From Saccoglossus kowalevskii (Eukaryota > Hemichordata > Enteropneusta > Harrimaniidae): a DNA stretch of 43,688 nt. Below are positions 549 to 42,604 of the stretch, piece by piece. The stretch is from NCBI RefSeq assembly GCF_000003605.2, contig NW_003135353.1, forward strand, positions 311,218 to 354,905, written 5' to 3'. The number at the start of each line of letters is the position of its first letter. The first letter of the stretch is position 1. The notes beneath the pieces are model-generated. The model was given only the letters and a program-made list of their open reading frames with translations, ran no database searches and was not told where the DNA came from. Made by a program: the position numbers and the translations under genes.

Positions 549-620
549 GAGTCTTCAGGGACAGAGCTTACAGTGGTTACACATGAACGCCTTCATCGGT
601 CTTGACAGTCTCCGTGTATT
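549..620 (+). CDS. Receptor exon: leucine-rich repeat 1 of the visible set
   Basis: A 72-nt exon with acceptor CTGCAG before it and donor GTAAGT after it. It encodes one LRR including the motif NAFIGLDSLRVL. The first base completes an upstream codon, so at least one more exon lies to the left. The 72-nt length and identical phase match the one-repeat-per-exon pattern of LGR and relaxin receptors. Confidence 0.87.
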
Positions 621-3600
621 GTAAGTCAATATGTATACGTCACTTCCTGTTTTTGGTTGAAAAGTATATGTACCTTACACCCATAAGACATAATTTGTAT
701 ATAATGGCGACTTGTTTTGCCAGTTTAGAAACCATATAATTACTCGCCCCTATATCTACTAGTATATTATGCCGTTGCTGGTAGAGTACATTTCGTTGTC
801 TACAGTCACGTTCGCGTTAATAATAGTAACCTGGGTTGCATAAATAGGTGAAAATCAGCTGTATTCTCCCGAAACTTTCCACAAAATATCACCTTTTCCA
901 TATCGTTTTTGCAAATTGTAGTTTGCCCTAATATTTTAATTACTTTCACTGCTTGATCTCCAATGGCTGGACGTCGACTGACACATTGAACCACAACCAC
1001 AGTTGAGTGGGTATGTTTCTACACTGTCATCCGTTTTGTCATTCGCTTCTATTCATTTGACATTATCTTTCTAAGTCGTACTTTATTTCAGAAATCTATC
1101 CCATAACCACTTGCGTTTCATAGACAATGGAGTTTTCAATGGTCTTCACGAAATCATGACAATGTAAGTACGCCACTACGCGTTTGGGTAAAGAGTTCGT
1201 TTGTTTTTATAAGCCGAGTAGATGATTTTCACAAAATGTCGATGTTAATATCGTTCTTATACACAATTAGCGCGAATAAAAGAATGCAATTAATATAGTT
1301 CACAGCAACGGGACGGTTATGTTAATTTTAACGTGTTTTTTTATTTCAGCGATCTTACCTTCAATGATTTATTACAAGTTGAAAGCAAGGTATTCTACGG
1401 ACTAATGAAACTTGAAAATCTGTGAGTAAAATGTACATATATGTCGAGAGCAAACTACAGCTCATGGTATCTAGACCTTTTTATTGAACGGTGACTTTTA
1501 TTGAAAAGTTGCTCTTAACAGCAATTTCCAAGAACGTATGATACGTAACAACGATTTATTTTTTAACAGCACAATCACGACATTAAAAGTGAAATTTAAT
1601 ATATATTGTTTTTTGTTTATTATATAACGGGTTATAACTTTTTGTCTTGTTACTATGTGAGTCAAGACATCTGGCAACTAACGTGTGAAAATATGCACGC
1701 GTTTATTCAGTCAGCAAATACTTAAATATCACGTGAAATAAAACTACGTCCTGCTGGTCCACGGATTGTGAATGGTTCTGTTAGGAGAACGACGGTAAAG
1801 TGATTACCGTAAAATCAGCGGAGGAGTCGTCAGCTACACACGCGCGGGAACTCAGTGAGTCCCAATCGACGCACGTTAAAAGCGCAAAGGCTCATGGGTA
1901 TACGCTTGTCTGCAAGCAACGAAAATATTTTTTATCACATTGCGTTCTTTTTTTCAGACTGACTGACGAATATCGTTTTTGCTGCTTGGCCAGATTCGTA
2001 CCGAACTGCTCACCTCCTCCCAACGAGTTCTCCTCGTGTGAGGACCTCATGTCCAACGTAGTGTTAGGTGTCAGTATTTGGTTACTCGGCACCGTGGCGT
2101 TCGTCGGTAATCTGTTGGTTATCTGTTGGCGCCTACGAGATAAACGTGACAATAAGGTAAGTTTCTAGATGCTATTTGTAGTTTATTGCGTTAGTATGGA
2201 TGCAGAGTTTTAGCTCAGACTGCTATAGCTCAGATACAGGCTCATACGACGTCCCAGTTTTTATTTATTTACAATTTTCATTGTTTCTCCTTACATTAAC
2301 GCGGAGAAGTCGCCACCTACACCACGGTTACTAAATTAGTAACCGTGCTTGCACATGCGGCGGCAAACGCCCATGGCGTGTCGTTGTTTACAAACAAACG
2401 TCTACCCATGAGCCTTTGCGTTTTTAGCGTGTGTTATCGTCGCCTGGGACTCAATTCCCACGCGTGTGCAGGTGACGACCCTCCGCTTTAAAAACGAAGT
2501 ATTCGGTAGAAGGAGTTAATGAGTATGTTGACATTTTTTACATTTGGCACCGAATTCGCCTAGTATTACCTCGCATGCGTTGTCAGCGTGCTTTCATTCC
2601 GTTACATTACAAAAAACGCAATTAAGACAACGTACTAGTATACGAGACCATTATAACACACATTACTATAAGCTATGATTTTTTTTAAAATTTATTTTAT
2701 TATTTCAACTTACGCTTTTTTTGTCTCTTCTAGGTACATTCATTTTTGATCACTAATTTAGCCGTTGGTGACATGTGCATGGGTATTTATTTGCTCATCA
2801 TCGCCGTTGTGGACGCGTATTACCGAGGGGAGTACATCGCCCATGATAACATGTGGCGGCGCAGTACACTGTGTAAAGCTGCTGGCTTCCTATCGGCATT
2901 CTCCAGCGAACTATCCGTATTTACACTGACTGTTATAACATTAGACAGACTCGTGTGTATTGTGTTTCCTTTCCGCTTTAAACGATTGCAGTTCCATGGC
3001 GCCTGTCGCGTCATGGCAGCGGTATGGTTAGCGGTTTTCTTTCTTTCCGCCATTCCACTGCTTGGAATTCATTACTTTGGCAACTACTACGGCCGCTCTG
3101 GAGTCTGCCTGGCACTGCACATAACACCGGACAAGCCCAAGGGCTGGGAATATTCTGTTTTTGTCTTCCTGGTCTTGAACTTGGTAAACTTCTTGGCAAT
3201 CATGTTGTCGTACGTGGCAATGTTCGTGGTGGCTACGAGAACTCAACAAGCTGTCAGGAACCGTGATATGAAAACAGAAAACGCGATGGCTAAACGCGTT
3301 ACCTTGATTGTGATGTCAGATTTCTGCTGCTGGGTACCGATCATACTGCTTGGATTTGCGTCGCTTGGTGGCGCTGTAATCCCGCCTCGGGTAAGTGAAA
3401 TAACACGTCACCAGATATCACCATTACATGTGAAAATGTCCTGATAGGCAATTGATGCTCAAATTTTGCCTTAATACGTATTACTGTTAATTTGGAAAAT
3501 CTTTAATAGAAGTTCCATCAATACGTGACTTGTGGTTATTTAAAAGCGGGGTGTCGTCTTCTGCGCAAGTGGCAGCGGACGGACATGGCGTATAGTTGTT

Positions 3601-6600
3601 TACAGACGAGCGTCTACCCCTCCACATTTTTAGCGCGCGCTTTTACCGTTCCCTGGGACTCAATTCCCGCGCGTGCGCAGGTGACGACCCCTCCGACTTA
3701 AGTTGAGATATGCTTAGTAATGTAGAAAGGAGCCAGAGAATGATTATGCAGCGCCCTCTATAATTTATGTGACGTAATTGCTGAAACTGAAGTAAAATCG
3801 TTCACAGCGTTGTTATTTTTTTGACGTGAAACCTCCCATCAAATAAAAAATAAAGCATTTGACAGAGTTATTATATTGTAATTGCGACGAACGGATCCAC
3901 GTAACCAAACACATTTGTCGATTTGTACATTGTTTACAACTATTTATACGTCAACTGAATCGCGTCGTCGCCAGTGTGTGATAGGGTATGCGTATTGAAT
4001 TATTATAACTTTTACAATAACAGCATTGATTTCCAATAGTCGAACATTGATTTCCAGTAGTCGAACATTGATTTCCAATAGTCGAACATTGATTTCCAAT
4101 AGTCGAACATTGATTTCCAATAGTCGAACATTGATTTCCAATAGTCGAACATTGATTTCCAATAGTCGAACATTGATTTCCAATAGTCGAACATTGATTT
4201 CCAATAGTCGAACATTGATTTATAATTGAATTTTCTCAGGTATACGCATGGGTGGCAGTGTTTGTGTTACCTCTCAACTCCGCCATTAATCCGTTACTTT
4301 ACACAATATCAACGCCGACATTCATGAAACGGACCAAAAAGATGGCTGATTCTATCACCGAGTCGTTTCGTGTGAGGTGGAGAACGGACGGACGAGCCAA
4401 TAGCTTCGCAGGTGAGTATACGGCATGCTATTTATTTCAATATTGCATTTTTTTAATCTGAGCTAGCCGATCTAGTGCGTAGATAAGTTGTTCTCGGTAT
4501 GTCCATCGTCAGTTATTAGACTATTGGAGGATTTGAGCGTCACGTGGTATTTGTGCCTTGCTACGTCACAAAATCAGCCATTTTATTTAGTCTCGTTCTC
4601 AGCTGTAATAACCAGTAACACATTCTTCCAAATATTATCTAACTATCACACATTACTTGTAGTGAATGTTTAATTTGAAATACCGGAAACATATGTAGTC
4701 GTTTTGTGTATCCAAGTTCGTTTGCGTGTCCATGTGCGCCGTGAACAGACTTCAAATACTAAGCCTATGTTTTGCTGATATAATCGAACAAATACACTAG
4801 AAAACTTAAACGACCTATTCACCTATCATACGCATCTGTTATTCAAGACATTTTCGATTCTATTCTGGGCGTTGATGGCAATCCCAACTAAAAGTTCCCA
4901 TGTTTACCCGTATAATAATCATATGAAAAAAGACAATTTTGTTCTTGTTACTTATTCAGAATCGCAAACAAGATCGTCCTTTTCATACACTGGTATCGAC
5001 CGTACAGATCGATGTGCTTCCGTTGGGTCGAATAACTCGGCTACGGTTGTCGCAATACGCTTGCGCACACTGTCTGGCAGTCACAATGGCGGCATGGATC
5101 TGATTGGTTACCATGATAAACGAACCGGAAGTGATCAGAGTAGCAGGGAGAGGTGCGACAGCGGTAAAAGTGTGACGTTCGCTGCAGACACGACAGATTG
5201 GAGAAAGAGAATAAACCAACCACCACCGCATGATATAAAAATAATAAGCAGGCTTGGACAGGTTAGATTAAAGCACGAAAGTTGGTCGTCATGCGGCGCG
5301 CTTTGGAATGTCGTCATAAAGAATATTTTACAAGCGTTGTATACGTCGCATGGCCGGGATTCAGGTCGACTGTCATGCTTTAAACAACAATTTACTATCC
5401 GACACGCATATACTTTTACATTTTGCCAACTTTATAATACTGAGCATATTACCACTGGGGGGATTGAGAATACACATGGATTTTCTGGACGTCTGGCCGG
5501 CAGTAATTACTTATGATTCCAGGAAAAATTCTAGAAAAAAAATAGTTTTTGAATTTCGAATCTTAGTTTTTATGCATGTTAGTTCATTTTTATTTTAAAA
5601 TGGCTGTAAGAGTAATTTTTTCTATGGAACAAGTCAATACCCCCTTCATTTTATTTGCTCTTTGTTGTCTACTTGATGTAAATTTTTGTTGAGATATCAG
5701 TATTTGGTAATACATCTATATTCCACGTTTTCACCCATTAGTCACATCAGTTAAATGGTGACATTTTGGTAATGATATTGATTTTCTTTCATCTGTATAT
5801 GTAATATGTACTGTGCATATCTGTACTTCCTGGCATATATTATGTATATTAAATAATATAGACACAATGACGTAGCATGTGTCTCTTTAAAAGGTCGCTG
5901 TTTTTATCACACTCTGGCTGTGATGTTACATGGATTTTTTTTCAAAATACGTACTGCACGAGACGTTGATCTTTGAATAACCATATCTCATAAGTGTTTA
6001 TGTTCTTCTGTAGAATAAATATAAGATTGAGTTCAAGCCACAAAACCAGTATGCCACGTCGGCGTCAGGTTGTCTTGTATGCTTTCCGGAGAGGAATGCG
6101 AATGAATTTAACAACATCACGCAGATCTTGAGAAAGCTGCACGAGAACGAGAATGCCCACGACAACATTGTTAAGCTGCTGTGGACTTGCAGCGCGTCAG
6201 ATATAGTGGAATGGAATGGCACGAAAGATCAGATTCCGAATAACACAAAATTGTAAGTTTTTACCTGTGGCATGTTTTCTTTTGGTTGCTAGCTATGTCT
6301 GAAAAAATGGCACACTTTTTATTTCATAACAAACAGAAAAAAACGAACAAGTTAAATCAAATATGGAATGAATAAAAATGGTTTGAAGAACGATTAAATG
6401 ATGGTTATGATAAAATACAATAAACAAAACACTTGAGGAGCATTTAATGCGAAAAAAGTCAATTTCACAGCAATGTATAAACAAAACAAATGGCATCCTC
6501 GCACTTTTTCCCAGTTGAGTCGAAACATATTTACAAGACGCTCTCTGATTGGTCTGACTGTATGGTGTTAGGCCAAACAGGCATAATATTGTAAATAATA

Positions 6601-8897
6601 TAATAATATTGTAAACAACTCCGGATCGGATACAAACTTTAGGTTTGGCTTTAACACAATTCATAACAACTATCAAACGCAAGGTTAATGTTGATGAAAT
6701 AAAATATGTTTTCTCTTCATTGTTTTAAGACTGATCTGTTTTGAATATGTGAATGGTGTTACTCTGAAAGAATTTGCCAAAGATACATTGGACATTAGAA
6801 TATTCATACAAATCATTATCCAGATATCCAGGGCGGTAGACCACCTCAGAAAACACAACATAGTTTATGATAATTTGTCTTCCTCCACTGTTCTAGTCGA
6901 AGCCATTAGCCAGGTGAGAAGTCTGTGTGTCTGTTATTACGTTGTACCACGAGAATTTTATAAGTCCACGCCTATAGACATTTTTCGAGTCAATTTTAAC
7001 AACATAACATTTTTTTTTCTGCAGGAATTACCGAAAAACGTTCGTCCCGTCCTGTTCGATTTCTCAAAAGCAATAGACCAGTTAACAAACATGAATGAGA
7101 CCATCGATCAAATGAATGATGTCATGGCAATTGCGCGCATGCTCAATGACCTTTGTGCTAATGTGCTGGTAACACACGAAGCAGACGACACCGGTAAGTA
7201 AGCCTAATTACACGACGTAGCTGTGAATCTATATAAAACGGTATTTGACAAGTTTTTCAACATTATGAAACGTTCTTGTTCGTTTGTAGATACTACTGAA
7301 TTGGCGCCATTGTTTACAGGGACACGGTTGAATATGAATAAAGGATTTCGGGTAAGTAATATCACCACCAAAGTTTAAATTACATTTTGCTTTCCCGTAA
7401 ATCCCTTTAGTCAAATGTGACGTAGAGAACACGTCCGTGGGTTAAATCAATACAATTCAATGGTGTATCCATCCGCGCCTCTCTCTGATTGCTAGGAACT
7501 AATCAATTTACTAGTAGCAGGCAATTCGTGTAAAAAGAACAAGCGTTGATTTGTCCTTATTTTTTGGAATCATGAATATTCGATTCATAATTCCCAAATA
7601 TATGCCTTATGGATGTAGAATCCCATAATCACTGTAACGTGGTAATCCATTGGCCCATCTATGCATTTGGCCTATCTACGTCATTCGTATCTACGTCACA
7701 TAACACTGTAACACGATCTTCCATTGGTTTTTCTTCGTTCATTTGTAATTACGTCACATAAATACTGTAACATGGTTTCCATTTGCCTATCTACGTTCAT
7801 TCGCATTTACGTCACATAAATACTGTAAAACGGCCTTCTATTGGCCTATCTACGTTCATTCGCATTTACGTCACATAAATACTGTAACACGGCCTTCTAT
7901 TGGCCTATCTACGTTCATTCGCATTTACGTCACATAGATACAGTAACTCGGCCTTCCATTGGCCTATCTACGTTCATTCGCATTTACGTCACATAAACAC
8001 TATAACACGGCCTTCTATTGGTCTATCTACGATCATTCGCATATACGTCACATAAACACTATAGCACGGCACCGTCTTCTATTGGGGCCCATCGACGTAT
8101 CGCATTTACGTATGGTCATAAGCGGGAAGGATTATTTTTAGTGCCAATCATGTTTATAACTTCCCGAATCACCAATTGTCAAGTACACATGTCTCAATCG
8201 ATGTTCAAAAACACTTCGTAATCAGGATTGTTATTTTATGTGTGCTTAACTTTATATCGCATGTTACAGTAGTGATGATGATTACAGACATAACTCGATT
8301 TGTTTCCACGGAAACGAGGAAATAATATTTTTTTATAATGATTATTATATTTTAATAAATGGTCATCAGTAAGACTAAAAATGTCGTTGAAATCAATATA
8401 CGTGCAATCATGGAAGGTACTGACGTTAGTGCAATCAAACATCTCAAAACAGAATCATAAATAATTTTCCGACAGTTCCAATCATAACTACGCCCTCCCA
8501 CAAGATTATTCCCTGCTTCTTATTGCACCACGGCAGACCTACTATATTGAATATTTTGGCAGAAATCTCAGTTCTAATTATGATGTTTTCTCATTATTAC
8601 AACTTCTATGGAGCTTAGTTGATTTCTATTGATATAGGCGCAGAATATTAAAATCATTTTTTATGACAGATGTTTTTAATACACTCCACACAATTTGCAA
8701 ATGTGGCTATAGTACTTTGAAAAGTAGTACATGTGTTTCTGTATACGATATATTGACTTAAGTCTCATATTTTTTAGGCTGACGAAGTGTTGCGCTTATG
8801 TGTATCAGAATGTGCCAATGAGCCGGCTTCAGCTTTTGATATTCTCCATCAATTGACGTCACTTATGAATGACCCGGATGGAGTGTACTACGTGTGA
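549..8897 (+). CDS. LRR-7TM (relaxin-receptor/GRL101-like) receptor with C-terminal pseudokinase, 5'-partial
   Basis: Hand-built gene of 12 visible exons: 549-620, 1092-1163, 1350-1421, 1958-2156, 2734-3390, 4240-4411, 4960-5261, 6014-6252, 6730-6913, 7025-7193, 7290-7351, 8778-8897. All introns are GT-AG, every join is phase-consistent, and the result is 772 residues plus TGA. Order: three LRRs (1-72), Cys-rich hinge (73-105), TM1-TM7 (about 106-385), polar linker (386-505), kinase-like fold (505-772). The 7TM part shows the hallmarks of relaxin receptors and mollusc GRL101: hinge FSSCEDLM, YYRGEY after TM2, ELSVFTLT in TM3, YFGNYYGRSGVC in ECL2 and NSAINPLLY in TM7. This family binds peptide ligands at the plasma membrane and signals through G proteins. 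The kinase-like tail is unusual for the class and lacks catalytic residues. The N-terminus (signal peptide, probably LDLa modules and more LRRs) lies left of the window. Family assignment is strong; ligand and signalling output are unknown. Confidence 0.93.
1092..1163 (+). CDS. Receptor exon: leucine-rich repeat 2
   Basis: A 72-nt exon in the same phase as its neighbours, acceptor TTTCAG and donor GTAAGT. It encodes the canonical LRR core NLSHNHLRFIDNGVFNGL, the clearest repeat in the window. Confidence 0.92.
1350..1421 (+). CDS. Receptor exon: leucine-rich repeat 3
   Basis: A 72-nt exon, acceptor TTTCAG and donor GTGAGT, encoding DLTFNDLLQVESKVFYGL and ending in a split Leu codon completed by the hinge exon. 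It is the last LRR before the hinge. Confidence 0.9.
1810..1920 (+). mobile_element. MITE family A, copy 1 (one end only)
   Basis: Carries the left-end signature (GCGGAGGAGTCGTC, then CGCGCGGGAACTCAG, then GGCTCATGGGTATACGCTTG) shared with copies at 2296, 3540 and 41498. The opposite terminus is missing. It lies in the intron before the hinge/TM1 exon. Confidence 0.65.
1958..2156 (+). CDS. Receptor exon: cysteine-rich hinge and TM1
   Basis: Encodes residues 72-138. The hinge (YRFCCLA, PNCSPPPNEFSSCEDLM) has the Cys pattern that caps the ectodomain in LGR and relaxin-type receptors. TM1 follows (about 106-129) with the conserved GN pair (N123, position 1.50). The acceptor has a long T tract and the donor is GTAAGT. 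A MITE fragment ends only a few tens of bases upstream of the acceptor. Confidence 0.94.
2296..2491 (-). mobile_element. MITE family A, copy 2, TTAA at both ends
   Basis: Terminal inverted repeats start TTAACGCGGAGAAGTCG on the left and, read from the right, TTAAAGCGGAGGGTCGTC. The right half read in reverse matches copy 4 almost throughout (GGGAATTGAGTCCCAG, GGCTCATGGGTAGACG). It contains an extra perfect hairpin at 2324-2346 with 10-nt arms. It is in the TM1-TM2 intron. Confidence 0.75.
2734..3390 (+). CDS. Receptor exon: TM2 to TM6
   Basis: The large 657-nt (219-codon) exon carries TM2 (NLAVGD, D151 = 2.50), ECL1 with YYRGEY, TM3 ending in TLDRLVCIVFP (DRL in place of DRY), TM4, ECL2 with NYYGRSGVC (Cys partner of TM3), TM5, and TM6 with FCCWVP. 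These blocks are typical of relaxin-type receptors and GRL101. Donor GTAAGT at 3391. Confidence 0.97.
3540..3701 (-). mobile_element. MITE family A, copy 3, TTAA at both ends
   Basis: A 162-bp element bounded by TTAA (3540-3543 and 3698-3701). The inverted ends are AAGCGGGGTGTCGTC on the left and, reversed, AAGTCGGAGGGGTCGTCACC on the right. It shares internal blocks with copies 2 and 4. It is in the intron between TM6 and TM7 exons. Confidence 0.78.
4022..4222. repeat. 21-bp minisatellite, about 9.5 copies
   Basis: Head-to-tail copies of a 21-bp unit beginning CATTGATTTCCAATAGTCG, nearly identical (one copy has CAGTAG). The unit is a multiple of three, so several frames stay open on both strands; these are not genes. 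It ends about 18 bp before the TM7 exon, where a branch point and polypyrimidine tract are expected. Confidence 0.97.
4240..4411 (+). CDS. Receptor exon: TM7 and start of cytoplasmic tail
   Basis: Encodes VYAWVAVFVLPLNSAINP and then LLYT, i.e. TM7 with an intact NPxxY motif, followed by the basic helix-8-like stretch MKRTKKMADS. The acceptor TTCTCAG lies about 20 bp after a 21-bp minisatellite. It ends in phase 1 and joins the linker exon at 4960. Confidence 0.96.
4960..5261 (+). CDS. Receptor exon: polar cytoplasmic linker to kinase-like N-lobe
   Basis: Encodes about 101 residues rich in Ser, Thr, Asp and Arg, with no membrane segment, ending in HDIKIISRLGQ, which resembles the first beta strand of a kinase N-lobe. 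The donor chosen is CAG|GTTAGA at 5262 because it leaves phase 0, exactly what the exon at 6014 needs. The frame stays open to 5516, so readthrough would add about 84 residues and then stop. Donor choice is less certain than the exon itself. Confidence 0.75.
5262..6013. other. Receptor intron with nothing recognised
   Basis: AT-rich intron between linker and N-lobe exons under the chosen splice model. The first 255 bases stay open in the receptor frame; beyond 5516 nothing is recognised. Confidence 0.5.
6014..6252 (+). CDS. Receptor exon: kinase-like N-lobe (beta3, alphaC, beta4)
   Basis: Acceptor TTCTGTAG, donor GTAAGT. It encodes 79 residues including SGCLVCFPER (beta3 region, with no Lys at the VAIK position) and NEFNNITQILRKLHE followed by NIVKLLWTC, a good match to the alphaC helix and the H-xNIVKLL segment of Ser/Thr and Tyr kinase folds. 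Confidence 0.85.
6730..6913 (+). CDS. Receptor exon: kinase-like hinge and catalytic-loop equivalent
   Basis: Encodes LICFEYVNGVTLKEFAK (beta5 and hinge of a kinase fold), a helical alphaE region, then HNIVYDNLSSSTVLVE. The last block sits where kinases have IVHRDLKPxNVLV, so HRD is replaced by YDN and the loop Lys and Asn by Ser and Thr (residues 641-648). Donor GTGAGA at 6914. Confidence 0.9.
7025..7193 (+). CDS. Receptor exon: DFG-equivalent and alphaF region
   Basis: Encodes PVLFDFSKAID (DFG changed to DFS, residues 668-670), then NDVMAIARMLNDLC, which matches the alphaF helix with its Asp (D688). Only about 18 residues separate them, so the activation segment is much shorter than usual and no APE motif is visible. 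Acceptor CTGCAG, donor GTAAGT. Confidence 0.9.
7290..7351 (+). CDS. Receptor exon: short kinase C-lobe piece
   Basis: A 62-nt exon joined in phase (GAT split codon). It encodes TTELAPLFTGTRLNMNKGFR, a plausible alphaF-alphaG linker. Acceptor TTTGTAG, donor GTAAGT. Confidence 0.78.
7635..8110. repeat. 59-bp minisatellite, about 7-8 copies, in a receptor intron
   Basis: Units containing CATTGGCCTATCTACG, TTCATTCGCATTTACGTC and ACATAAATACTGTAAC recur at about 58-59 bp: the ACGTCACAT block falls at 7693, 7751, 7809, 7868, 7927, 7986 and 8045. The outer copies are more diverged. Short open frames across it are repeat artefacts. Confidence 0.95.
8111..8777. other. Rest of the last receptor intron
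   Basis: AT-rich, with no repeat or exon recognised after the minisatellite. Confidence 0.5.
8778..8897 (+). CDS. Receptor terminal exon: kinase C-lobe end and stop
   Basis: Encodes ADEVLRLCVSECANEPASAF, then DILHQLTSLM and a short tail ending VYYV and TGA at 8895-8897. The pattern Cys, Asn-(E)-Pro, Ser-Ala-x-x-Ile-Leu-x-x-Leu matches the final alphaH-alphaI segment of kinase domains. Acceptor TTTTTAG. Confidence 0.9.
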   Translation, partial: ADEVLRLCVSECANEPASAFDILHQLTSLMNDPDGVYYV

Positions 8898-9013: not shown

Positions 9014-9019
9014 AATAAA
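9014..9019 (+). terminator. Candidate polyadenylation signal of the receptor gene
   Basis: AATAAA about 115 bp after the receptor stop codon, the first canonical hexamer downstream. Assigned by position only. Confidence 0.4.
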
Positions 9020-29220: not shown

Positions 29221-29229
29221 ACCCCCCCT

Positions 29230-29516
29230 CTCCAATGACGGGACTACCTCGTATCCTGGCAGCCATCTCTGTGTTAAATTTCACTTCCCTATAGATTACC
29301 CTATATGGAATAAATTCCCCCACTCTCCAATGACGGGACTACCTCGTATCCTGGCAGCCATCTCTGTGTTAAATTTCACTTCCCTATAGATTACCCTATA
29401 TGGAATAAATTCCCCCACTCTCCAATGACGGGACTACCTCGTATCCTGGCAGCCATCTCTGTGTTAAATTTCACTTCCCTATAGATTACCCTATATGGAA
29501 TAAATTCCCCCACTCT
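29230..29516. repeat. Three perfect 95-bp tandem copies
   Basis: Copies begin at 29231, 29326 and 29421 with TCCAATGACGGGACTACC and appear identical over the full 95 bp, ending AATTCCCCCACTC. Perfect identity means very recent amplification or an assembly or sequencing-read artefact. Confidence 0.97.
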
Positions 29517-29699
29517 CAGGGTATTGCAAACTAATTTAAAATATTCCGCATTACGCTCGAGAGCATTTAAAAATGTTCTACTACCCTTAACAAAATTCTT
29601 AATGTTCTACTGTCATAAAGATAATCAATTAGGAGACGAGTTGTCTGTACCACGTCAGTAAATACAAAAGATCTTCTCACATTCAAGCATTAGACACTT

Positions 29700-38490: not shown

Positions 38491-41400
38491 GTAAGTGATT
38501 GAAACTCAAACAGTCGTGTTTGCTACCACGGTAGAATATGGTTATCAAAGGCAGCCGCACGAAATTTTGCATGGGGCCCTTAGCGCCCCATAGGCGCAAT
38601 GGGTCGCGCATTTTTTCGAAGTGGGTAGCGACCTTTGATTTCTATCTCATTGTAAGATTGTGTACCCGATGAAGCGCTGACTTCAGAGCGAAACTTTGCA
38701 AAAATACAAAGAGTAAAGCAAACAGACGTAGTTTTTTTCATATTTTACCTGTTATATCTGGTCGACCTGTTTATTTTTATTTCACCTCTTCAATCATTCT
38801 AGTGTCACTTACTGATTAAATGAAGACGGCAATTTAAAAGAACTCACATTATAATGTTTCATTATTTTATGCTACTTTTCTTCATAGGTTTTTCTACAGC
38901 TGATAGGTCGAAATATTTTTGGTCGCGTGGGAAAGTCCCCATCAACGGAAACACAAGTATTTTTGACAAAGAACATCTCCATGTTTCGTCGTTGGATGTA
39001 CCAGAAGGTAAGAATTGAAGAATTTATTTATTTATTTATTTGTTTTCATGCTGAATCAACTACAAAGTTTTAGAGAAAATGTCAGTATTTTTGACAAAAA
39101 AGGTCCGCCAAAAATATCTACTACGAACGTACTAAGGTGGTAAAATACAATAAGCACAATGTATACTACATTAAAGACGTATATCCTCGTCCCAGGCATA
39201 AAATACAAATGAGACGATTATTATTTATTACATTCATTTATGTATCTGGTACATTTTTTATTTGTGTATTTCCAGGAGTCAGTGTATTTTGGACAATTGT
39301 ATGCGGCACGGTACATTATGGTGTATTCTGCCAGCATAATGTAATACCCAAAGGAACACGATTTGGACCGTTCATTGGAAAGATAGTCAACACGAGCGAG
39401 ATTAAGACAAATGACGACAATTCACTTATGTGGGAGGTACGTATGTGTTATCATTGCCCCAAACTTACCAAGAACTTTGATTTCTCAGCACAGTAACCTG
39501 AGAGTTATACATCTTAGCTCATTGGTATGATATGATATGAATTTTATTCAGTACAATGGCCTCAGGCCTATGGTACAATAAATCAAAAAAAAGAATAGAA
39601 AAATACACACATAAAATACATAAATAGCTCATTGGTTATACCATACAATGCAATGACAGAAAGCGCAAGTTGCAAAACAGGGAGGAGGATAGTGCCTCTG
39701 TTTAGTTCCAGTGAATGTCCATGTCTCTTGATGCGTTCACGTGGCTTGCCATGTTGTACATTGCACACCGAAATCAATAGTTGTAAATATAATTATAGTA
39801 TATCTTCTCAATAGACAATGTAAAACAAATCGGAATTATGTTCTAAATATCAAGCCACAATTCGAAGACGCTTATTCTGTGCTACCTGTTGTCACAAACA
39901 TCGCTATTCCGTATTAAGAATTTGGACTATGTCTTAAAAACGGACAAGATCTAGCTCAGACTAGCTGTTCCTCTGTACTAATAGTTCGCGCCGATTACTA
40001 ATATTAAGGGATGACTTGTTTGACCTTGTAGCTCATGCTGAAGAAATATGCGTGACAAAATAAACTTATGAGACTTAACAACAACAATATCTTAAAGAGA
40101 AAAACAAAATCAATACGATAGTGGTTTCTCTATTCTTTGTCTTGTACTTCTTTCCCTCAGATCTTCACTGACGGGAAGCTCAGTCATTTTATAGATGGAC
40201 GTGGTACCACAGGGAGTTGGATGAGCTACATCAACTGTGCGCGATATGCGAATGAGCAAAACCTAATAGCACGACAGGAGGATGGGCAGATTTATTATGA
40301 GGCCTGCCGAGACATACGGCATGGGTCGGAGCTTTTAGTCTGGTACGGTGATTCCTACATTCAGTTTATGGGCATTCCAGTTTCACTAAAATATGTAGCA
40401 TCGACGTCAACGAAAACGACAGAAAACACAATCGGTAAGTCATTCTGTTAATTTTATTTGGGAGGAGATACTCGCCATATCAGCTGGTGCTATAACCGTT
40501 TCACGGAAACGAGGAAACGACGGTTTGTTTTTAATGGTTTGTCTCTTATCCCCATTCAAGGTGTCAACGTGTAACGACCGTTCGTAACATTGATAATGTT
40601 TTATTCCGTCAATACAAATTACTTTTTTTTTCTGTTAACATATTTGTTAAATTCTCAATGACGAGCGGCAACATAAGCAAACTGGATTGTCTATTTGACT
40701 AATCTACGTCATTTGGACATCATCTTAGCGCTTCGTCGTCAGAAGGTACATGAGCCCCGTTTCACGGAAATTTGGGAGTTTAAAATTAACACGGCGAATA
40801 ACTATAGTCGTATATTGATCAGTATCAACGATGGTGTCTAATGCATTCATTGTGTAATCCCAGAAACTGACAGATTTGTACAAAAATGCTTAACATTAGA
40901 TCGCCACATGCGACGTATACAAGGCATGTAAAGTACTAGTGCATTGTGAGTTTACTCGAAATTCAAACGCATTTTAATTTCTTGAACGAATAATAGTTTT
41001 ATTTTTGCTAGGAAATATTGTCTATGCGACGGAAGCCTGTTACAAATATCTATCAGAGTGTTTTTCTCGTTTCTTGCAGATTCGGCGGGTTATAGTTGTG
41101 AACGTTGCGGGAAAGTATTTACATACGGATACTACCGTGACAAACATCTGAAATATACACGGTGCGTAGACCAAGGAAATCGCAAATTTCCATGTCATCT
41201 TTGTACTCGTTCATTTGAGAAGAGAGATCGACTCAGGATACATATACTGCATGTACACGAGAAACACCGCCCTCACAAGTGTACGGTGTGTGGGAAAAGT
41301 TTTTCCCAGGTAAGTGAACATCTTTTATTTATGACGTTTTTTATGCACATTAAGACAAGTGACAAACATGTAATCGTAGATAACTTCTATACGATGCGTA

Positions 41401-42604
41401 TGAATGCATTGTATAAGTTTTATTTCCCTTCCTCCAGACGTAGACGTAAATGTGAATGAGTTCTTGTAGGCATGCTTTGAGCAAGTAATTTATAGTTTTA
41501 AAGCGGGAGAGTCGTCACCTGCGCACGCGCGGGAATTGAGTCTCAAGCGATGATAACAACACACGCTAAAACGCAGAGGCTCATGGGTAGACGCTTGTTT
41601 GACAATATTGACACGCTATGACCATCTGACGCATGCACAGAGGACGACTCCTTCGCTTTAATAATCATTTTGTTTGATCAATAATAACAGTTTACTCTTG
41701 TCATGGAATTGCGTTATTGGAGAAATATAATATATAAAGCTGATAGCCATGTGGCGTCTCTCTTTTTCATTTTTATTATGGATTAGTCCTGGGCTAGAAA
41801 TTTATTTTATTTCCGATATTCAAATAATTGTGAAATGTAAACGCATATTGTTGCGTCAACGCGACCTCTGATGTTATATTAGGGACAAAAACATCATGCT
41901 TAGTTTAAATTATGACATTCTATTTCGCATAACATTGTTGAGAATAACGCCCTCAAGCTTCTCTGTCGTCAAAATGACATACATAGTAGTTTTGTTGCGT
42001 GGTAGTTTGTTATTTTGAATATATATATATATATCTTCTAAAACATTATAGTTTATATTTATTGTAAGGCGACTACAGATAATTACAATATCAATGCCAC
42101 GAACAGCATTCTTTTCACCTATTTACGTCACGGAATTGCTTGGCGCTTGAGGGCGCGACTTATAAACATGATTCCGTATAAATGACCAAACCCTCTCTAT
42201 TTCTTCACCATTTTAACTTTATTATTTGTTTGTATTTGTTACAGTCTTCAAGCTTAAACAAACATATGCGAGTCCACAGCGGAGAAAGACCTTATAAATG
42301 TGTGTACTGCAGTAAAGCTTTCACAGCTTCCAGCATTCTTCGGACACATATCCGTCAACACAGTGGAGAGAAACCGTTTAAATGCAAGCACTGCGGCAAG
42401 GCGTTCGCCTCGCACGCCGCTCATGACAGTCACGTGAGAAGAACGCACATGACGCGAGACCCGCGCTTCGTGGCGTGTCAAGTTTGTGGGAAAAGTTTCA
42501 GCGAACCTTATGAGTTGAAATTCCACATGAATATGCATATGCACAGCGGACAGACAACAAGTCTTAATATTCCCAGCATTCAAGAAGCTCATATAACGTC
42601 ATAA
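38355..42604 (+). CDS. PRDM14: PRDM14: PR/SET-domain zinc-finger protein
   Basis: Six coding exons: 38355-38490, 38888-39007, 39276-39436, 40161-40434, 41080-41309, 42245-42604. All are GT-AG with consistent phase, giving 426 residues and TAA. Residues 1-85 match the segment before the PR domain (REHVDSVLYG). The PR/SET domain is about 86-220 (VFCQHNVIPKGTRFGPFIGK, DNSLMWE, DGKLSHFIDG, SWMSYINCAR, ELLVWYGD). Six zinc fingers follow (about 236-410), including the family-specific YRDKHLKYTRC, RDRLRIHILHVHEKHRPHKC and ASHAAHDSHVRR. The human protein has the same order but a much longer N-terminus. The start ATG (38355) follows an in-frame TAG at 38343. In vertebrates PRDM14 is a nuclear DNA-binding repressor in pluripotent and germline cells; the role here is unknown. 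Confidence 0.95.
38888..39007 (+). CDS. PRDM14: PRDM14 exon: segment before the PR domain
   Basis: Encodes about 39 residues (DRSKYFWSRGKVPINGN to LHVSSLDVPEG). The terminal LDVPEG aligns with the LxLPEGL lead-in to the vertebrate PR domain. Phase 1 at both ends; donor GTAAGA. A (TTTA)n repeat follows the donor. Confidence 0.85.
39276..39436 (+). CDS. PRDM14: PRDM14 exon: first half of the PR/SET domain
   Basis: Encodes HYGVFCQHNVIPKGTRFGPF, then GKIVNTSEIKTNDDNSLMWE, the signature opening of the PRDM14 PR domain. Acceptor TTTCCAG, donor GTACGT at 39437. Confidence 0.95.
39515..39636 (-). mobile_element. Very short LINE 3'-end insertion with 12-bp target duplication
   Basis: TAGCTCATTGGT occurs at 39515-39526 and again at 39625-39636, flanking 98 bp. 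Read on the minus strand the insert ends in GAATAAAATTCATATCATAT, typical of the terminal microsatellite-like tail of many LINEs. It lies in the PRDM14 intron that splits the PR domain. Confidence 0.72.
40161..40434 (+). CDS. PRDM14: PRDM14 exon: second half of the PR/SET domain
   Basis: Encodes IFTDGKLSHFIDGRG, SWMSYINCAR, EQNLIARQEDGQIYYEACRD and ELLVWYGD, then a short linker beginning IPVSLK. Donor GTAAGT. Confidence 0.96.
40435..40900. other. PRDM14 intron, nothing recognised
   Basis: Intronic AT-rich DNA before a degenerate family B MITE. No exon recognised. Confidence 0.5.
40901..40975 (+). mobile_element. MITE family B, degenerate copy 6
   Basis: TGCGACGTATACAAGGCATG, TAAAGTACTAGTGCATTGTG and TTTACTCGAAATTCAAACGC track the family B interior with many substitutions. 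Termini are not intact. Confidence 0.5.
41080..41309 (+). CDS. PRDM14: PRDM14 exon: zinc fingers 1, 2 and half of 3
   Basis: Finger 1 (YSCERCGKVFTYGYYRDKHL, KYTRC) ends in Cys instead of the second His, as in vertebrate PRDM14. Finger 2 is FPCHLCTRSFEKRDRLRIHI. The exon ends in SFSQ, inside finger 3. Acceptor TTGCAG, donor GTAAGT. Confidence 0.96.
41498..41661 (+). mobile_element. MITE family A, copy 4, TTAA at both ends
   Basis: A 164-bp element bounded by TTAA (41498-41501, 41658-41661). Ends are AGCGGGAGAGTCGTCACC and, reversed, AGCGAAGGAGTCGTCC. The interior shares CGCGCGGGAATTGAGTCTC and GGCTCATGGGTAGACGCTTG with the three receptor-intron copies. It is in the last PRDM14 intron. Confidence 0.82.
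42018..42033. repeat. AT dinucleotide repeat in PRDM14 intron
   Basis: Uninterrupted (AT)n tract of about 16 bp within the last intron. Confidence 0.85.
42245..42604 (+). CDS. PRDM14: PRDM14 terminal exon: fingers 3-6 and stop
   Basis: Continues SFSQ|SSSLNKHMRVH, then fingers 4 (ASSILRTHIRQH), 5 (ASHAAHDSHVRRTH) and 6 (CQVCGKSFSEPYELKFHM), and a short tail ending ITS and TAA. Confidence 0.97.
   Translation, partial: SSSLNKHMRVHSGERPYKCVYCSKAFTASSILRTHIRQHSGEKPFKCKHCGKAFASHAAHDSHVRRTHMTRDPRFVACQVCGKSFSEPYELKFHMNMHMHSGQTTSLNIPSIQEAHITS

Follow-up and report, generated by a model that had tools for sequence, protein, structure and literature searches.

Does a leucine-rich repeat (LRR) receptor with a relaxin-receptor-like seven-transmembrane (7TM) domain run on, in one polypeptide, into a kinase-like domain? 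The question is raised by a stretch of 43,688 nucleotides from the hemichordate Saccoglossus kowalevskii (contig NW_003135353.1, positions 311,218 to 354,905; hereafter the window), in which a sequence-only reading had joined twelve exons between positions 549 and 8897 into such a chain. The locus and its relatives in the same genome were analysed computationally. The region is likely to be the 3' part of one receptor gene that combines LRRs, a 7TM domain of the relaxin-receptor/GRL101 type and a pseudokinase, that belongs to a family of such genes and whose tail would work by binding. The single-chain architecture itself can be predicted from the DNA with great confidence.

Joined reading frame and its domains

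The twelve exons (Table 1) could be joined in a single frame on the plus strand, with GT-AG borders at 11 of 11 introns, giving 772 residues and one stop codon. The alternative frames of the same join contained 47 and 51 stops. Given a stop density of 0.0605 per codon, taken from positions 8901-38000 of the window, the chance that a tail of ~359 codons stays open was p ~2e-10, a value that does not allow for the choice of splice sites. From the sequence, we infer a single mature mRNA. The proposed in-phase join was thus upheld in its frame, splice borders and single stop; it had to be revised at position 549, which cannot be the start, since the exon found there carries its own acceptor (ctgcag) and is an internal LRR exon. 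For the same reason the gene start is placed upstream of the window, where 20 kb are all N in the assembly. An AATAAA hexamer was found at 9014, 117 nt 3' of the stop codon.

In the Pfam analysis of the joined protein, LRRs (LRR_8, 7.1e-10, best stretch residues 2-55) preceded the 7TM domain (7tm_1, 4.1e-30, residues 122-378). When the latter was compared with PDB, RXFP1 was closest (2.4e-63), followed by TSHR (5.2e-46) and the LH and FSH receptors; LGR4 was a much more distant match (about 1e-18). The relaxin-receptor/GRL101 type assigned by the sequence-only reading is in good agreement with this order. By eye, NPxxY was kept as NPLLY and CWxP as CWVP, and DRL was present instead of DRY. G-protein coupling is plausible because NPxxY and CWxP are kept.

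The ectodomain repeats visible in the window gene are LRRs, the region 5' of them being N. Upstream of the paralogue C3325, tblastn gave five LDLa matches (E 5e-9 to 9.3e-5) and weak single LRR matches (E 0.004-0.8), which is the arrangement of GRL101, where several LDLa units are likewise found. Judging from this close relative, the window gene may have LDLa repeats before its LRRs. An LRR ectodomain followed by an RXFP-type 7TM domain is shared with RXFP1/2 and GRL101, the type C LGRs. To our knowledge, these known receptors end in short tails with no further domain. In contrast, the predicted chain of the window gene runs on into a kinase domain, and about 360 codons with kinase matches follow the TM7 exon in place of the short tail that is typical of type C LGRs.

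Within residues 505-772, where a kinase fold had been proposed, PK_Tyr_Ser-Thr was matched at residues 568-653 with 3.6e-5 and 23.7 bits, above its cut-off of 23.1. With the shorter kinase part as query, PK_Tyr_Ser-Thr reached 27.3 bits and Pkinase 30.2 bits (range over runs 28.7-30.2). The kinase-like C-terminus was therefore borne out by the Pfam kinase-family matches; the degeneracy of its catalytic residues, the gene family and a relative with intact residues, all described below, had been missed.

Table 1. Exons of the receptor gene in the window (positions in the window)
Exon	Positions	Strand	Evidence and remarks
LRR exon, first in window, internal to gene	549..620	+	72 nt, ctgcag before; LRR_8 match
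LRR exon	1092..1163	+	72 nt; LRR_8 match
LRR exon	1350..1421	+	72-nt phase-2 exon and sequence; mostly beyond best LRR_8 stretch
Hinge and TM1 exon	1958..2156	+	7tm_1
Main 7TM exon, about TM2-TM6	2734..3390	+	7tm_1; RXFP1 match 2.4e-63
TM7 and helix 8 exon (NPLLY), phase 1 donor	4240..4411	+	Joined frame
Linker exon, phase 1 to 0; end IKIISRLGQ resembles the start of kinase beta-1/glycine loop by eye	4960..5261	+	
Kinase N-lobe exon; Val at aligned VAIK-Lys; no Met, in-frame TAG just 5'	6014..6252	+	Pfam, alignment
Alpha-D/alpha-E and catalytic-loop exon; IVYDNLSSSTVLV replaces HRD...N; phase 0 end	6730..6913	+	
DFG exon with LFDFSKA, in which Asp is kept and Gly is replaced by Ser; DVMAIARML resembles subdomain IX by eye	7025..7193	+	
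C-lobe exon	7290..7351	+	Joined frame
Terminal exon with EVLRLCVSECANEPASAFDILHQL, which resembles subdomain XI by eye; TGA 8895-8897	8778..8897	+	

Intron 9 (6914-7024, 111 nt), which separates exons 9 and 10, has no in-frame stop (open stretch 6698-7201), so that its retention would add 37 residues between the catalytic loop and the DFG motif.

Linkage of 7TM and kinase-like exons in the genome

In order to evaluate the fusion beyond this locus, the LRR-7TM part served as query in a search of the 572-Mb genome to which the window belongs, and the flanks of 16 other LGR-type 7TM loci with E ≤ 1.2e-20 were inspected (C3325, C1365, C4310, C1468, C4224, C814, C167, C4150, C1352, C46, C3619, C3459, C2733, C1571, C1555 and C1047). 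Twelve of the 16 had a kinase-like exon 3' of the 7TM domain in the same orientation, and in the ten loci where the distance was measurable it lay 0.2-2.2 kb from the 7TM match. As a control, 17 other G-protein-coupled receptor (GPCR) loci with 1.5-kb flanks (L001-L008, L037-L044 and L046) were searched with the kinase-exon profile, and the best E value was 1.2. The kinase-like exon of C167, used as a genome-wide query, gave nine matches at E ≤ 1, itself included (C167, C1352, C4310, C2733, C814, C4224, two on C4150, and C1342), and all nine adjoin a 7TM domain of LGR type. The corresponding exon of C3325 matched itself and C1468.

A profile of nine such exons (A1) matched 649 PDB sequences at E ≤ 10, with the pseudokinase VRK3 as the best one (3.5e-5); among the matches listed, the best 60 of 649, 58 were named kinases and two were 'MGC80376 protein'. 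Leave-one-out profiles recovered 8 of 8 other members at E ≤ 1e-5, the window exon being the weakest, and the full nine-exon profile also recovered C4224, C1468, the second C4150 copy, C1342 and C1555 (2.2e-6). When four fuller tails, that of C1047 included, were combined in a profile, the best PDB match was a tyrosine kinase (8.8e-15), and 1064 sequences were matched at E ≤ 0.001. A Pfam kinase cut-off was passed by C3325 (24.6 bits), C1468 (34.0) and C1047 (59.9). Kinase was the top, albeit weak, Pfam family in C2733 (0.0062), C4224 (0.013) and C4150 (0.038), and the tail of C1555 fell below the Pfam kinase cut-offs. Tails below the cut-off were identified as kinase-like because of the shared profile. 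That the kinase match is profile noise was considered unlikely, as C3325, C1468 and C1047 pass the Pfam cut-off independently. Together with the window gene, this genome is predicted to hold at least 13 fusions of an LRR/LGR-type 7TM domain with a kinase-like domain, which suggests an ancient design common to these genes and not an accident of gene prediction.

An open join could also arise if an ordinary LRR-7TM receptor gene lay next to a distinct kinase-like gene and their splice signals fitted by chance. Read-through into intron 6 meets a stop by 4461 and read-through into intron 7 by 5516, as such a pair would allow, and polyA-like hexamers are present in between (e.g. at 5267 and 5848), hexamers of this kind being scattered along the whole stretch. 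However, exon 8 has no Met and is directly preceded by an in-frame TAG, which precludes the start of a separate kinase gene at this point. The constant order and strand at the 12 other loci would be kept by an ancient co-duplication of neighbours, yet this would not need the intron phases to match. A phase-1 donor-like site after helix 8 was observed in 12 of 12 receptors (the window gene, C3325, C4310, C167, C2733, C814, C4150, C1352, C1047, C4224, C46 and C1468), in eight of them 97-103 nt past the NP motif; four tracks hold candidates of another phase too. All 14 tracks, from 13 receptors plus the second C4150 copy, had a phase-0 donor just 3' of the catalytic loop. The agreement of intron phases argues for a common descent of the kinase part with the 7TM domain. 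The linkage at other loci, including that of all nine C167-exon matches, and the common phases make two separate genes quite improbable, and the predicted single chain is preferred.

The origin of the fusion was addressed with trees of the 7TM domains, in which the label 'non-kinase' means that none was found. The 17-row tree, with 13 kinase-bearing rows including C1047 and C1555, both of them very long branches, required two changes of the kinase label. Forcing the kinase-bearing rows into one clade was not rejected (log-likelihood difference 0.29; p value of the approximately unbiased test, p-AU, 0.128), and such a clade was present in 8% of 200 bootstrap trees. When five rows of a 20-row set (C1047, C1555 and three outgroups) were removed, two changes were again counted, and one clade had a log-likelihood difference of 0.02, a p-AU of 0.385 and a bootstrap value of 42%. 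In the tree of all 20 rows, where C1047 and C1555 were scored as non-kinase, three label changes were found. These values are compatible with one fusion event.

Several results weigh against a fused receptor family with a kinase fold. In the best trees the kinase-bearing receptors do not form a clade. No kinase was found in the 6.1 kb between the last 7TM match of C1365 and the contig end, nor within the 1.5-kb flanks of C3619, C3459 and C1571. Among ten paralogue tails analysed in Pfam, two exceeded the kinase cut-off (C3325 and C1468) and five gave no Pfam kinase family (C167, C1352, C4310, C814 and C46). In the joined protein of the window, Pkinase (6.9e-7, 29.4 bits) stayed below its cut-off of 31.7. 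The best PDB match of the window tail as a single sequence, PINK1, was weak (0.022), and as a genome-wide query this tail matched itself alone. Against the profile of the other eight members, the window catalytic-loop exon had an E value of 0.05, the next open reading frame in the window reaching 0.73. The stops in introns 6 and 7 mean that kinase-less isoforms are possible. Finally, the catalytic-loop exon of C1047 matched itself and six further places in the genome (on C3472, C3324, C1729, C4510 and C3979; E 0.001-0.006), so that relatives of these domains are not confined to the neighbourhood of a 7TM domain. The six are probably ordinary kinases and may point to the ordinary kinase family from which the tail originated.

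Catalytic residues and possible role of the tail

The catalytic residues of the window tail were assigned from alignments with PINK1 and C1047. The position of the VAIK-Lys is occupied by Val, HRD is replaced by YDN and the catalytic-loop Asn by Thr. At the alpha-C Glu position, where the alignment is uncertain, Ile or Asn was found and not Glu. DFG is present as DFS, and its Asp is the only one kept of the five key catalytic residues. It is because of these residues alone that the tail is termed a pseudokinase, which, from the sequence, it very likely is.

The relative C1047 (L036 and L063) is a divergent LGR-type 7TM gene, its 7TM domain being 26% identical in the genome search with the window LRR-7TM part. 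In its kinase exons all five key residues could be assigned (Lys in LKFF, Glu in NEIKVL, HND..N and DFT). DFT is followed by DIRSFALVLFEML, after which the frame stays open for a further 800 codons or more, past the end of the stretch read. No glycine loop was identified in C1047, and an intermediate exon demanded by the phase was not found. As predicted from these residues, C1047 may be an active receptor kinase. In another divergent 7TM gene, C1555 (L035), the 7TM domain is accompanied by a long tail of Pro-Glu repeats, and HGE..N is found in the kinase-like exon.

The retention of the key residues in C1047 means that the ancestor was possibly active, and activity is known from some kinases whose motifs are unusual. 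Together with the retained DFG Asp, this would fit a window tail that is itself an active kinase with unusual residues, making the protein a receptor kinase in cis. The combined replacement of the VAIK-Lys by Val, of HRD by YDN, of the Asn by Thr and of DFG by DFS, with no alpha-C Glu, renders such activity very improbable, and a pseudokinase is favoured.

The loss of catalytic residues would also be expected if the gene, or its kinase tail, were a decaying relic under no selection. Broken-looking relatives do occur: C1342 (L058) is shortened and a second C4150 copy (C4150:34656, L056) has frame breaks, both being probably pseudogenes, and the 7TM domain of C1468 changes frame. In contrast, 12 of 12 window exons are open and bordered by GT-AG introns, the kinase-like exons are open and alignable in divergent paralogues, and the leave-one-out profiles recovered all eight other members. 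Decay of the window gene or of its tail is thus improbable, and a maintained gene with a pseudokinase tail is the preferred reading.

A possible mode of action can be modelled on the pseudokinase and kinase-homology domains of other receptors. The ectodomain would bind an extracellular ligand, which may be a peptide of insulin/relaxin type, and the ligand-bound ectodomain would switch the 7TM domain. The pseudokinase tail would then act through binding: serving as scaffold or allosteric module, it would recruit or gate a partner. The ligand class, G-protein coupling and scaffold function are all put forward by inference, as is the coupling of peptide sensing to a kinase-type scaffold by the fusion. 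In JAK JH2, VRK3 and the kinase-homology domain of receptor guanylyl cyclases, the kinase fold serves allostery or docking. The likeness of the tail to these domains lies in the kinase fold, VRK3 being the best PDB match of profile A1. We know of no pseudokinase or kinase-homology domain attached to a 7TM receptor. By analogy with these domains, a binding role of the tail, as scaffold or allosteric regulator, has about an even chance of being correct.

A further scenario, speculative and rather unlikely to hold in all its parts, is that a bilaterian invented a family of peptide-hormone-type receptors with their own kinase, independently of protists and sponges. At least C1047 would then be a functional receptor kinase, signalling or phosphorylating itself on 7TM activation, and sisters like the window gene would have become pseudokinase regulators, perhaps as its partners in the manner of receptor dimers that combine a kinase with a pseudokinase. 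Hormone sensing in animals is regarded as following two distinct routes, one through 7TM receptors and one through receptor kinases, and relaxin and insulin are divided between them. If the prediction is true, an animal whose relaxin-receptor-like 7TM domains carry kinase tails would link the two routes and offer a testable case of a pseudokinase that serves a GPCR.

Known systems and other features of the window

Chains in which a 7TM domain is followed by a C-terminal kinase, as predicted here from DNA, have been described as GPCR-TKL/K and GPCR-TK fusions. In the excerpted text of that report, they occur in choanoflagellates and sponges and not in other metazoans (PMC12716839; Garcia De Las Bayonas and King 2025). 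The present family differs from them in its LGR-type 7TM domain and in kinases that are mostly degenerate-looking. The same design principle is found in other lineages, oomycetes and amoebae, as GPCR-bigrams (GPCR-TKL, GPCR-PIPK; PMC6033456, PMC5784254). According to excerpts of these papers, GPCR-bigrams in metazoans are rare, perhaps nonexistent (PMC5784254), and models of how such chains could work include one with an inactive C-terminal domain (PMC6033456). If the fusions predicted here are true, the picture drawn in the excerpts of PMC12716839 and PMC5784254, with animal fusions limited to sponges or absent, would be incomplete.

For ambulacrarians, one orthologue per LGR type (GRL101 included) has been reported per species, more having been sought, and the excerpted text makes no mention of a kinase tail on the GRL101 orthologues (Veenstra 2021; PMC8286064). 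As far as these excerpts go, the single-orthologue result sits uneasily with a receptor family in a hemichordate, and it adds to the points against the family given above. In the mitochondrial contig of this genome, cox1, nad1 and cox2 have AAA for Lys, ATA where Ile is usual, TGA for Trp and a single AGA where Ser is usual, a codon usage that would fit a hemichordate. A kinase tail is likewise not mentioned in the parts considered of papers on GRL101-/LGR-like receptors of Biomphalaria (PMC12297450), Acanthaster (PMC6267866) and Ciona (PMC2396169); the word 'kinase' is absent from the main texts of the first two, as is the term 'kinase domain' from the third. The literature search yielded no description of an LGR-7TM-kinase fusion in a bilaterian, although databases of automatic annotation may already list it.

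Two introns of the receptor gene contain minisatellites, one in intron 5 (4024-4221; 21 bp x 9.4, 98% matches) and one in intron 11 (7667-8070; 59 bp x 6.9). A further repeat with a 95-bp unit (x 3.1, 99% matches) was found at 29222-29517. At 39095-42604, on the plus strand, the window holds a PRDM-type gene, in which a PR-domain exon (PRDM2_PR, 3.1e-10) is followed by C2H2 zinc-finger exons.

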